In this document: piece by piece, positions 50,501 to 59,500 of the stretch
Position numbering within the stretch: the stretch's first letter is position 1
Layout: every line of letters begins with the position of its first letter
Assembly (NCBI GenBank): GCA_036925085.1
Contig: JAUPFP010000001.1
Coordinates: 19,617,229-19,681,228, forward strand
Direction: 5' to 3'
Origin: Brachycybe producta
Taxonomy: Eukaryota > Arthropoda > Diplopoda > Playtdesmida > Andrognathidae
DNA: 64,000 nucleotides
Translations under genes and position numbers: made by a program
Notes under the pieces: generated by a model
Seen by the model: the letters and a program-made list of their open reading frames with translations, nothing else
What the model was told of the DNA's origin: nothing
Database searches by the model: none

Positions 50501-53500
50501 TCACAGTGTATATATATAGCTTTTCTTTTAAATAGCTTCATTTTGTATATTTTGACACTACATAGTAGCGAACCTCAAATTTCTAAAAATTTGTTTGCAA
50601 GTTGAATTTATTTTTGTCCCCGTCCCCGTAAAGTTCATAAATACTGTTTGTAAGTTGGGATTCACCATTATTTTCTTAAAAACTACCTCAAGTTTCAAAT
50701 GAGTTGTATTATTATTGCCTGAGATGTTAGGCCTATACTGTAAACTAAGCATGTCAAACTCGCGTCCCACATGCAGCCCACAACGAATACTTTTGCTGCC
50801 CCAGCCCATAAATTTTACCGTTGTCCTCGTTCTTTTTACACACTTTTATTTAACTTCATAATTTGTTTGTTGAAAAAATCTCACATTGCAAGAGAGTGAA
50901 CCGACGACTAACATTACCAGGGGCTGAGACACTAACCACAACGATAACAATACAATTTTTTTTTAGACTTTTTTTTTTTATAAAAGCGAGGATCACAAAA
51001 AACATGTTTTTTTTTAATTTTCTTGTTTATACTGCACTTTTCAAAATAAACCTACGTTTCTATAAAAATTGAAGTTTTTTTTTTTTTTTTTGCGGCCCGC
51101 ATAAACTTAGACCTTGTTTATTTGGCCCGTGTTAGACTTTGAGTTTGACATGCTTGCTGTAAGCAATAAGACTCTATCCCTTCAGTCTACTATGATAATA
51201 AAACTTGGGCATTTGTGTCCTGAAACATACTGCATACAATTAATCAATGAAGATTTCACCTATCCAAAAGGGATGTGATGTTCGTACCATCCTTATCGAA
51301 ACCCCACGAACAAAGTAACAATGCTTTATCCCTACAAACAAAAAATATGTTGTTAAGAGATATTTTATGCCAAATTACAAATAAAATTGTCAACACTATG
51401 AGGTTCCGGTGACAACCTTAACGAAAAACTTGAAATATTTCAGAAACTAGAAGAGTAAATGAATCATTAAATCATCGGTTTAAGTAGTGATACCACTTAA
51501 GTGAAATTTTTGGCGTTTTTGATGTTTTCGCATAAAAAAAAACATGAAAAAATAAAAAAAATCTATCTGAAAAATTCAAATTCAAGCTTCCAGTTTCTAC
51601 AACACATTCAATTTCTTCTAAAAAGCATCTTCTGAACGTCATAATATCAACATTTTTATTCCATTGATTTTCTATCATCGGCATATCAAGCAATTACGAC
51701 AGGACTCGTTTTTAACCTGTCCACACTTTTATAGACTTTCACAGCAGCCGTGCCGGGATATCCAACCCAAGATTGCAATATCGGTTCGCTACGTGTCGTC
51801 GTTCCAGCACTCGTATTACCGTCGCCTCGTATCAGAGAATGGATACTGACGTTGTTCGGAAAACCTTTACTGGATGGAATCCGTACTTTTCCCTCTTCTC
51901 GCAAGTTTTTAATCAGTTTGAAAAATTAAGACTATAAACGTTTTCTTAGTACAATTGGTTTTACGAATCACAAAAGTTTTACTCGAGAAAAGTATATAAA
52001 CTTGTGTCTGTTGAATTAAATTTTTAAATGAATTTTTAAATTTAAATTTCATAAAGAAATTGAATGAAAAATACGAGTTTGTTTTTGAATTTCAATCAAA
52101 CATTCACCGGAAACCGGTTTCTAGCAGCTACAGTTTACATACAACTTTCAGAAAATTTTTAAAATGCATCACGATATCTCCGAGAACGACGCCTTGCTAT
52201 AACATATGGTTAAACTCTGTTAAGAGAATCCGCAAGCACCACAGACATCAATAGGGCGCTATATGGACCAAAATAACTATGGGGCGATATAGGGGCGCGA
52301 ACACTGTTAAAACTAGAGGTGGGACGACCCCTCCCGAATCTCTCGATTCCTTCATATAAGAATCCTATATTATTCATTAAGAAGATACACAATAAATGAA
52401 ATAATATTAAAATTTAAATTATTAATAATCAAAAAATTTAGTGTGGCACTCAGGGTCGCCACACGGTGATATTGATGATCCGGGTACAACACCGAAATTG
52501 CAACTATCGCCGGTTTTGTTGTTAGTGAACGCTTTTATTGGACGTCAATGGAGTTAAAACTAATTTTACCAAATTTTTTAACAGTTTTTTTAGGCGAGGA
52601 TTCGAAAGATTCGAAAGACGAAAAAAGCGTGAGGATTCGAGGTTTTCGAATCTCGAAAAAATGTTTGAAAAAAATATTTCTAACGACGGAGAAGAGGAGA
52701 AACACGACTAGCAAATTCAAACTTTTTTTTTTGTTGGGTACTTATCTTTATTGCTAGGTGCCCACTGCCAACGGATAAAAATAAATCTACCAGAGAGGTG
52801 CAGTGAAGGGGTGGCTCGTTTCCGCATTTTCTCCTCTTGTGAGCGTTTTTTTGTATTAGTACAAAATACCAAAGTAAGTTATTCTTTAATTAACAATTAA
52901 CAACCTTTTATATTTTATAATTCGTTAGAAATATTTTTAAACAACATTCTTTCCTCCGCTCCGCCCCCCCCCGCCCCCGGACAACAGTTTTAATGATATC
53001 AGCGCTCCTATATCGCACCATTGACGCCCATGGCACTTGCGGATTCTCTTAAGAGACCGAGAGTTTTTCGTCGTAACAGTCTAGAGACGTTGTAATGGAC
53101 GTTACTCGCATGAAAATTCTTGTTAATTGGCACGATGTTTATGTTACGTTAATCGAGTTTGACAGCAAATGATCAAACTGTAGTTTCGTACACAGCGTCT
53201 TAAAATTTCATTTTACTCCTCCAATGATGACTCGGTTGAAAATGATTTGATTAACGATACCATTTTCAAGATCTCACAACAGAAAAGGATATAATTGAGC
53301 CACATCCAGAGGTTACGCAGTTGTTCTTCTTCTTTAACCAAATTGGCATTTTTTCCTAACTGTTGCATCTAACAGGCAAAAAATCAAGTCATCGTTAGGA
53401 ACCAAAAATGATTTGCTTTATTTAGAGAGACGTCAACGGTTCAGAACCCGTTCACCAATTACTGGAACTGATAGAACCGGCTTTCTAGTATAGATCGTAA

Positions 53501-56500
53501 TGATAAGAACTCGTTGTTAACCGAGTAGATTCGGTTCGTTTCTACTCTTCGCCACCTCTAACTAATGTGCTGCACAATAATGCGCATCTGTGCATAGCTT
53601 ACTGTGCAAATCTGCTAATGCATATTGGAAACCTGTTTGAACTGGTTCGTTAAGATCGCCAAATTGATCAGAACCGGCTTCCAAAAAATCGTTAACCGAG
53701 CAGATTCGGTTCGGTTCTACCCTTTGCCACCTCTAACTAATGTGCTGCGCAAATATACATATTGGGAACCGGTTCGTCAAGATCAATGAAATAATCAAAA
53801 CCGGTTTCCAAAAAAAAATCGCAAACCGCAAACCGATTAAACCAGTTCCGAACCAAGTAGAAACGGTTTGGTTCTAACCGTTGCCACCTCTACTTATTTG
53901 TAGCTTGTTCATACTTCCATTCCATAGCCATCGATTGCACGCCTATGCATCTTTACGGAAATATCGTTCAAGAGATCGTAAACTTCATCTGTTTTATCTA
54001 TAATCTGGAGAAATTTTTTTCCTTGCGACCAAATCAAATTAGAGGTCGGTGACCAATTCTGTTAAAACGAAAGGCGATCAAAATTCAAATTAAAATGGTA
54101 CGAGAAAACGCTATTCAAATGAACAAAATCTACAAAAACAAGTACGGAACCCAACCTAAACATCTTTCAAACAAAACTCAAAGAATGTTTTTGAAACCAG
54201 ATGAACAAATTAATGAACTGAGCGCGTTTTTTACGACAACATGTTTAAAATCAAGTGTTTTATAAGTTTTGAAACGTTGAAAATGAAAATCAGATTAATT
54301 TAAAAATGACAAAAAAGTAACAATACTTTTCATTTATTCATCTAGTTTCAAAAACACTTTTAATTTCATTTAAACAATGTTTCAAGTAAGCCTACTTGTA
54401 AGCGTACTAGTAGTGTACTTGTTTCGATACTCGCAACTTGAAACATTGTTTTCCTGATTTGTAAACAGAACACGGCATGTAAGTGTTATCTGTTATTTGC
54501 AAAATTCCCCTGGCCACGAGTTAAAGGAGCGCATTTACTGGTACAAGTATGTAAGTTTTTCAAAGCATTTTTTAAACAAAACTCATTGTCTTTTCGAAAC
54601 TTGATGAATAAATTAATCGAAGAAACTGTTTTATGTGACGATCTTTTTGGTAATAATCCTTTTATGACAGTTTTAAAACGCCGATTTTTGGTTTTTGCTG
54701 TTATCGGAGTTTTAAAACTGCTATTAAATAATCATTACCGAACAGATCGTCAGAAAAAAAGGGTTCCCTCGCTTAATTTATTCATCAAGTTTTGAAAAGA
54801 CAATGCGTTTTTGTGTTAAAAATGTTTTTAAAAACCTACCATACTTTTGTACCGGTAAATTCGCTCCTTGAACTTAGTGGCATCACTTGTAATTAATTCT
54901 AATAAATATCTATTGGTAACAATTTAATGGCTACTTAGAAAACGAGAAAGAAGAGATGATTACCAATGTTATCCGTTCGCAAAGAACGTGACAAAGAATG
55001 TTTCCCGAAGGCAAAACCGTTAGAATATGATTTTCATTGTTTGGATGCCAACAAAAAGAACTCATCGGTAGTTGATCTTTCACTGCAAAACAGATAACAG
55101 ATAAAAACGCTGACGAGAAATTCTTTTGTGCCAGGGCACACGGACTACTTTTCGATTGCAAACTGAAGTTCAGTTGTTGACAAACCCGACCACTTGGTGT
55201 ACAGACATGCAGACTCAAAATATTCGGTTTTGGCGACAACCTGACTTTATTTTGCAGCCGAACAGTGGTCTGTGTCTAGATTGAGAGAAGAAAGTTGTAG
55301 GACAATAAAACAAAGGCCAAACAAACCAAAGAATAATTCAAAACAACTGAACGCATTTCGATTTATTGCGATGATCCACACATCGCTATCCCTTGACGGA
55401 GGGCATTCGTAAGTCCTCTTGAACCCTTTTTGTTTTTCGTATTAATCTTTCCCTTACTTCCCACTGTATATATGATGATGTTAATGGGCGTGACAGGCCA
55501 TTGCGGGGGGGGGGGGGGGGGTTATGAATAAAGACACCCCATTGGCCAGTGCCACAATTTTCGCCACGAAAACTGAAGGTTTTCCTTTCGTTTCTTCTTG
55601 TCGTCAAAAGAAGGATTGAGTTTTCTTTGTTCTGGTTCTCGTCTGCTCACCAGAGTTGTATGCGGTAACCGTGCGTAATTCTAATTCACCGAACCAGTTC
55701 TAGTCAAACTTAAGTATGAGTTATTTTGAGTTCGAGTGGAAGTAAAAATTATTTGCGCTTGAATAAATCGTGAGTTAATCTCCACTCAAGCAGAGAGGAT
55801 AATGGAGTCAATGAAGGCAATCCTCGACTGCCCCGTTTATCTTAAACCAACACTCGAGATCAACTGAGGTTACAACATCGAGTCAATAGCAAAGTGCAAT
55901 CGTAGGAATCATGTAGTATCGGTTCCCAGAGGCTTCGAGGTCTACCTCAATTCTGAGGACTTAGTAAGTTTTAAATGTGTCACACCGTGGCGTGCTGGCC
56001 TATTCCAGATGGCTACCGCCGCCAAGCCACATCTAAATAGTACTCTTTCGTCACATTAACAGTTTTCAGAAACAGAAAACTGCAGACACCAGACTCGCTT
56101 GTCAAAGTGACAGGAAGACCGAGACTGACAACTGAAGAACAGCTATTATTCAAATTCCCGGCTTTTATAGCGGGTGTCGCTATAAACCTTTTAATGAAGG
56201 GGACTGAGCAATTATACATACGTAAGACGTTGCGGTCAACAACTGTTGGTTCTATTTCATCGTGTCCATCTCCAGTATGTTGAAAATCGTACAATTTGAT
56301 TGTCGTATTTTCTTTGCCAAGTGACGCCAATAGATTTGTCCTACACAATTAAAAAAGAGGCCCTACTCGTTATCTATTTCGTAAAAAAATATTTGCTTAC
56401 GCTCGTTGCTTACCTTGTAGGCGACCATGCTATTTTTACAATTGGCCGAGAATCGGCTAACGTCACGATGTAATATCGCAATTGTTAAAGAAGCATAAAT

Positions 56501-59500
56501 TTAATTTTAATCTTAAGCCGGAGTCACAATAGTGAAAATTGATACACAAGTGTAGTGAAAGATGTGTAGAATATCACAAAGTTATATTTTTTTTCGTTCA
56601 AGAAAAAGTCATTTCAACCTATAAAAAGCAATCATTGATGGATAATTCTTACTACCAAAGATTCTACTCGGTTGTAATAAGAATTTTATATATTTTAAAA
56701 GAAAATAAAGCATGTTTGAGTCTCTGCACAATTCCTCTAATTTCAATACATTTTCATCAGAGTGGATGAAATTAAATCACATTCATTTAAATCACTGATT
56801 TAAATCAATTGATTTTTGTTCATTAAAATCAAGGTGATTTTTTAATTCTGAAATTTATTTTTCAGAGTTTTTTCTAAGTTTTTCTTTAAAAAGTGAATTT
56901 TTTTTATCGTTTAAGTCGTATGAAATGAATTTCTCATAATAATGCCTTGACAGGTGAATAAATAAACGGATTGAACACTTTCTTGTAAATGGATTATCAA
57001 TTTTTATAAGTGAATTGAGTATAATCATGATTTAAAAAAAATCATGATTTTTATCTGCCCTGATTTTCACCCTTGTTAACTAGGCGAAACAAAAAAAATC
57101 AACATTCTGTTGGAACATTATTCAAGCCGAGACTTAAATAGATGATGTCTCCGAACGGCTGAATAAGCTTGGGTGTGTTTGAGGCTATTTAATGTTGAAA
57201 ATAGTCATTTTCACATTTGAAGCGATTTTTTAATTCTGAAATTTATTTTTCAGAATTTTTCTTAAGTTTTTATTTGTTAAAGTGAATTTCTTTTGTCGTG
57301 TGAAATGAATTTCTTATAATAATGTCCTGACAGGTGAATTAATAAGTAGATTGAACACTTTCTCGTGAACGAATTATCAGTTTTTAGAAGTGAAATTCGA
57401 TTACATTTTTAAATAAATGAGAATTTTTTGAATTTTTTTTTTTTGAAAATAAATCATGATTTTTAGTCGCCTTGATTTTCACCCGAAAAAAATAAAATCG
57501 ACACTTTGTCAGAACCCTATTCAAGTCAAGACTTAAATTGATGATGTCTCCGAACTGCTGAATAAGCTTGGGTGTGTTTGAGGCTATTTAATGCAGAAAA
57601 TAGTCATTTTCATATTTGAAGCATGCATCTCCATAACGTTGTAAACGCCACCACATAAGGGTATAATACGTTTTTAATCGAAAATGGGTTGTAAACGCCA
57701 TACTTTTTGCAGGGGAATTTGCTTGTCACTAAAGTGCTGTTCCTATTAATATATTTTATCCCTTTACTGTAACTGATTTAGTAGAAATTTTTTTTATCTG
57801 CTGAAAAATTTAAATTTCAGCATTTACAAAGTTATGGAAATGCACGCTTCATTTAGCCTTCGTCACTTGCCTCCCTTATGAAACAATCCTGTGTGCAGAA
57901 CAAGTTGCACGGCACTGTGTACAACAATTTGGTGCATAATGTGACCCCGAGCTTTGCAGTTAAAAACTAAACATATAAGGATATCGGTTTCTCGAAAGAT
58001 CTCGTGTCCCAGATTACAACCTGATTCTATTTCATAAAAAAATACAAAAACATATTTGCGAGCTTTAAGAGGCTACACATCCCAAAATACTTCGAAAAAA
58101 TCTATTGAGCTCTTAGACCCAATGTTAAAGAAGAAACGTTAGTTTTTAAAAATACACAGTCACGGCAATATGTTTATTTTTCAAAATATTTAAATTTGTC
58201 CAATAATAAGTTTTCAAAGTGCAATGTGCACCTTAAATATATGCTGATAGAGTGATAGAATGACAAAAATTTCGTCAGTGCGGATATATTTTTAAAAGTT
58301 ATTTCAAAATAGCGAATTTTTAACTCTTATGTTAAACTCCATTGAGTACGCGCTCGTAAGCAAAACCATCCATTAAAATGTTCGTAAAAATACGTACAAA
58401 TAATTTTAAAAAACGAGAAAAATATTAGCACGTGCGCCAATGTGTTAGCTTCACTGTGGTTTAATCGAAGTTTTTTAAAATTATTTTAGGCATTTTTATA
58501 AATGTTTTTTTTTTTGCTTACGAGCGCGTACTCAATTGAGTTTAACATAAGAGTTAGAAATTCGCGATTTTGAAATACTTTTTAAAAATAGAACCGCACT
58601 TACAAATTTGTTGACATTCTATCACTCGATCAGCATATATTTAAGGTGCACATTGCACTTTGAACCATCAAAATTGGACAACTTTAAATATTAAAAATAA
58701 ACATATTGCCGCGACTGTGTATTTTAAAAACTAACATTTTTTTCTTGAACAACGGGTTTATGGGCTCAATATAAACACGATGCTAGCGCTCTTTATGGAG
58801 ATTTTTCGAAGCATATTTTTCGATGTAGCCCCTTAAAAGTGTATCATGTGAATCTAGTTAAATGGTGAAAGTTGTTTTCAAAAAGAAGAGTCACCAAGAC
58901 ATTTTACCTCAAAGTATGAAGCGACACGATGACTATGAAACGGATCGACGATAACACCGTAAACAGCTTTCGTAATCGTCGTTAGAGGGTTGCAGGCCAT
59001 TTTTACTTAAACAGTAACATTAAATTTATTAGTCGAGTAATTAAGAATGCAAGCAGATCATTTATTTTGTCCCCAAAGCGCTAGATGGCGCCAGTAGCCC
59101 TCCCGTAGAAATGTACTAACACTCTTCAACTATATCTGACTCACCTTCCTTTTTTCACGTGGCAAACTTTTAATTGCATCATCGCTATTTCTACACGTGC
59201 TCTCTTCACTTATTTGCGTTCTGAATAAGTTTGTCACGTGCTGACAATAGGTTGCTCTGGACGCTTTTAGTACTAAAAGGCATTCGATTTCAACTAATTT
59301 GCGAGTGGAGTTTGCCACCTATGGAGGTTGGCGCCATCTACCTTGCGTTTACACAAGTTCTATGAAGCCCTCTTAAAATTAGGCAGCAATAACTCGGATT
59401 AAAACTTAAGTCTTACTTCTTATATCAAACAGCTTTAGATTTTTGTTATTTATTCCGCCAATCAGAGTTTTCGGCTGATGTGAGAACCAATGAATCGACG

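Follow-up and report, generated by a model that had tools for sequence, protein, structure and literature searches.

The gene for MIOS, a nutrient-sensing GATOR2 protein, is almost certainly interrupted in this genome by a genuine U12-type intron with AT-AC ends, which would be excised by the minor spliceosome. We base this reading, made from sequence, on the splice signals, the reading frame, a shuffle test, the identity of the host gene as MIOS, the minor snRNAs found in the same genome, a match to CENATAC and the GT-AG ends of the neighbouring introns. Unless a locus is named, coordinates are positions in the window, that is, the whole stretch of 64,000 nt that was analysed. The putative intron and its signals are the following.

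56470..57984, minus strand: predicted U12-type AT-AC intron in MIOS (GATOR2), 1515 nt, phase 0
57977..57984, minus strand: 5' splice site ATATCCTT (+1 to +8), matching the AT-AC minor consensus (PMC2831892)
56484..56492, minus strand: branch-site motif TTCTTTAAC, with computed pairing to the U12 of this genome
56470..56471, minus strand: terminal AC of the intron, read from the sequence

U12-type AT-AC introns are marked as a class by ATATCCTT at the donor, TCCTTAAC at the branch site and AC at the acceptor (PMC2831892). On the minus strand, from 57984 to 56470, the putative intron starts ATATCCTTA and ends ...GCTTCTTTAACAATTGCGATATTAC, after which comes ATCGTGACG. The preliminary description had reported a donor of the AT-AC minor consensus, a branch site one base off its own consensus and a distance of 15 between the branch site and the terminal AC, and all of this holds. 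ATATCCTT is exact at +1 to +8; TTCTTTAAC has a single mismatch to TTCCTTAAC, the branch-site consensus being written TTCCTTRAC; and, with 14 nt between motif and exon, the last A of the motif lies 15 nt from the final intron base. The intron length is a multiple of three, and removal of exactly 57984..56470 joins FEKP|IVTLAD in phase 0, colinear with the MIOS chain, just as had been proposed for this junction.

Around the intron the gene can be modelled from these parts.

58908..59000, minus strand: exon D of MIOS, upstream; in-frame portion beginning at its ATG codon (translation; aligned with a PDB MIOS-like chain)
58027..58907, minus strand: intron D-E, GT-AG (major-type), 881 nt (splice-end reading)
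57985..58026, minus strand: MIOS exon E (translation, frame scans)
56414..56469, minus strand: MIOS exon F, ending in a split Arg codon (translation, local scan)
56341..56413, minus strand: intron F-G, GT-AG (major-type), 73 nt (splice-end reading)
56222..56340, minus strand: MIOS exon G (translation, wide scan)

The earlier assignment of the host gene to MIOS is confirmed by the hand-joined product of the neighbouring exons, in which some joins beyond exons D-G are approximate. This product matches Pfam MIOS_WD40 (PF21720) at 2.5e-61 and 207.8 bits, the cut-off being 31.7, and GATOR2 MIOS chains in the PDB (e.g. 9lvj_A, 7.2e-62), and the protein is colinear across the junction. The two best-scoring PDB hits, at 3.4e-123 and 5.5e-67, are chains that carry the name WDR24 in their deposition, and the better of them gives two alignments over one query stretch; we read these WDR24-labelled chains as mixed or mislabelled. 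The alignment to the best PDB chain runs gapless from FEKP into the following residues and has a one-residue gap after ADS. Viral contigs were scanned for relatives of MIOS and none was found.

Several other elements lie in or near the gene. Intron D-E contains a long inverted repeat at 58064-58837, with arms of 181, 79 and 36 nt that are 75-89% complementary, resembling a terminal-inverted-repeat or foldback element. Inside the putative U12 intron, at 56836-57622, there are two diverged copies of a tandem unit, spaced by 380-412 nt, with blocks 86-92% alike. A second ATATCCTT is found at 53285-53292 on the minus strand, in an open frame that lies past the portion of MIOS traced here. The peptide around it is reminiscent of a stretch of MIOS; a PDB search with this peptide up to E 10 returned no match. 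When acceptors with at most one branch mismatch and an AC or AG end were sought within 6 kb, there were three, about 4.97 kb away; with acceptors so distant and an open frame that reads through, we rejected the site as the start of a second U12 intron. It is probably a chance occurrence.

Could the AT-AC signals in MIOS be coincidental as well, and the intron an ordinary one with GT-AG or GC-AG ends? The motif RTATCCTT occurs in the window at the level of chance (five against 4.15 expected; 41 of 100 shuffles reach five) and TTCTTTAAC occurs there six times, so that either motif alone means little. The combination of donor and branch site at a protein-defined junction is nevertheless rare by chance. 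This was measured over 5000 trials in which the exons were fixed and the intron was shuffled with its dinucleotides kept, a hit being an in-frame AT or GT donor near the junction together with a branch site 8-22 nt from an AC or AG end. None of the 5000 trials gave a hit under strict settings (perfect donor at +2 to +8, at most one branch mismatch), and 8 of 5000 did under relaxed ones (at most one donor and two branch mismatches). In a local scan around the junction (donors from -42 to +149, acceptors from -150 to +49), no GT-AG and no GC-AG solution kept the frame. Six AT-AC pairs did so; even when the limits were relaxed, the proposed pair alone combined a good donor with a good branch site. 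A wider scan kept D as the upstream and G as the downstream exon, let donors range over exon E and the 200 nt past it, and let acceptors fall as far along as 60 nt short of where exon G ends. It covered introns of 50 nt or more and acceptors outside the 33 nt that surround the exon F end. An open in-frame join came from 0 of 1672 GT/GC-AG donor-acceptor pairs and, with exon E skipped, from 0 of 71 acceptors. Within the scanned ranges we had thus to reject every GT-AG or GC-AG join, including those that skip exon E or F, which upholds the initial statement that no GT-AG solution keeps the frame. The AT-AC solution falls exactly at the protein-defined junction, and an ordinary intron with coincidental signals is very unlikely.

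It could also be supposed that the intron, though AT-AC, is excised by the major spliceosome. Such introns exist in sodium-channel genes (PMC2831892), and major AT-AC introns are likewise described in PMC8280824. However, the sodium-channel introns of that type have G at +5 (PMC2831892), whereas the MIOS donor has C; a full minor donor, a minor-like branch site and minor snRNA genes are moreover all present, and we regard major-spliceosome excision as highly improbable. Since the gene has been traced in part and from sequence alone, one may further ask whether MIOS is here a pseudogene or a misassembly whose junction is non-functional. Against this, the sequence of exons F and G has one place in the 295-Mb assembly (among the best candidates scored), all four exons from D to G are open and MIOS-like, and both neighbouring introns (D-E, F-G) begin with GT and end with AG. 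The chance that the junction is an artefact of this kind appears exceedingly small, and a U12-type AT-AC intron remains our reading.

An intron of this type would require minor-spliceosome RNAs, and the preliminary description had made its case depend on their presence in the assembly. U11, U12, U4atac and U6atac were all found. The Rfam matches are 119.8 bits for U12 (contig C45), 116 bits for U6atac (C4), 84.8 bits for U4atac (C110) and, in a run at E up to 1, 79.4 bits for U11 (C21); all four exceed the Rfam gathering score and align from the first to the last model position, each at one place among the candidates scored. In 14 named control genomes there were no matches for U12, U6atac or U4atac, and U11 was matched in Synechococcus elongatus alone, at the loose limit and below the cut-off. 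Rfam run over the whole 64,000-nt window gave no RNA gene above the gathering score.

The U12 of this genome contains the stretch GAGUAAGGAAAA, which we take to be its branch-pairing part, and its U6atac contains GAAAGGAGAGA, which we take to be the donor-pairing part. The computed duplex of the MIOS donor with U6atac has five pairs and -5.4 kcal/mol (consensus: six pairs, -5.7), and that of the branch site with U12 has -4.7 kcal/mol (consensus: -7.4), the same positions being paired; we read the weaker branch-site duplex as the effect of one G-U wobble. In the U11/U12 di-snRNP, U11 recognises the donor and U12 the branch site, and U6atac then replaces U11. If the MIOS intron follows this pathway, U11 would bind its donor and U12 its branch site, U6atac would take over the donor from U11, and exon joining would restore FEKP|IVTLAD within the WD40 propeller of MIOS. 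The genome also has a match to the CENATAC/CCDC84 family, consisting of three stretches at one locus, one of which has an internal TAG in this intron-blind search. In human cells, CENATAC promotes AT-AC minor intron splicing (PMC8280824).

We know other U12-type AT-AC introns with which this one can be compared. Those of fly PHB2, Syx6 and KCMF1 have the same AT-AC ends (PMC2831892); the MIOS intron differs from the fly class in its one branch-site mismatch and in its host gene. Some observations we count against the U12 reading: the branch site pairs with U12 less strongly than the consensus does, phase 0, which is that of the MIOS intron, is disfavoured among U12 introns (PMC7367187), and AT-AC is a minority subtype that makes up 8.6% of the U12 introns of Apis (PMC7367187). 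MIOS is absent from the 19 fly U12 introns of PMC2831892, which we count in the same way, and the intron may not be widely retained. Minor introns have been surveyed across over 3000 genomes (PMC10639083); the main text of that survey makes no mention of MIOS or GATOR, and its supplementary tables may list MIOS. Our literature search returned no paper linking a U12-type intron or the minor spliceosome with MIOS, or a minor intron with GATOR2.

As a control we scanned for U12-like signals all six loci of this genome that match Band_7. One of them, L015 on contig C5, is prohibitin-2 (PDB prohibitin-2, 5.1e-15) and carries one further candidate.

About L015:399-1326, minus strand: putative prohibitin-2 U12-like intron, A-type (signals and gap-free PHB2 join)

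Its first bases, ATATCCTTTT, come directly behind EGEAEAAKL, and TTCCTTAAC lies 11 nt short of the next exon, which reads on with LGDAIMSNPGYLKLRKIRA. An AA end gives a gap-free alignment with PHB2, while ends 3, 6, 9 or 12 nt downstream keep the frame and lose residues; these ends were compared under a U12-like reading. The intron is thus best read as a predicted AT-AA intron. PHB2 of fly and human has a U12 intron, which is listed as AT-AC (PMC2831892). The prohibitin-2 and MIOS introns share the ATATCCTT donor, a branch site of the TTCCTTAAC type, phase 0 and a protein-consistent join, and differ in that the former would end AT-AA and the latter AT-AC. U12-like pattern hits also occur in the other five Band_7 loci.

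One speculative suggestion can be made regarding function. If AT-AC splicing by the minor spliceosome, promoted by CENATAC, is needed for MIOS in this lineage, minor-spliceosome activity might throttle amino-acid sensing by GATOR2 and TORC1. We think this unlikely; if true, it would constitute a regulatory link from the minor spliceosome to TORC1 sensing, which has no match in our literature search. The MIOS intron is a new, ordinary member of a well-known class, and knowledge of minor splicing is unchanged by it. A gene predictor limited to GT-AG introns would presumably break MIOS at this point. What is gained is a well-supported minor intron of the AT-AC type in a core regulator of TORC1, in a genome that retains all four minor snRNA genes.
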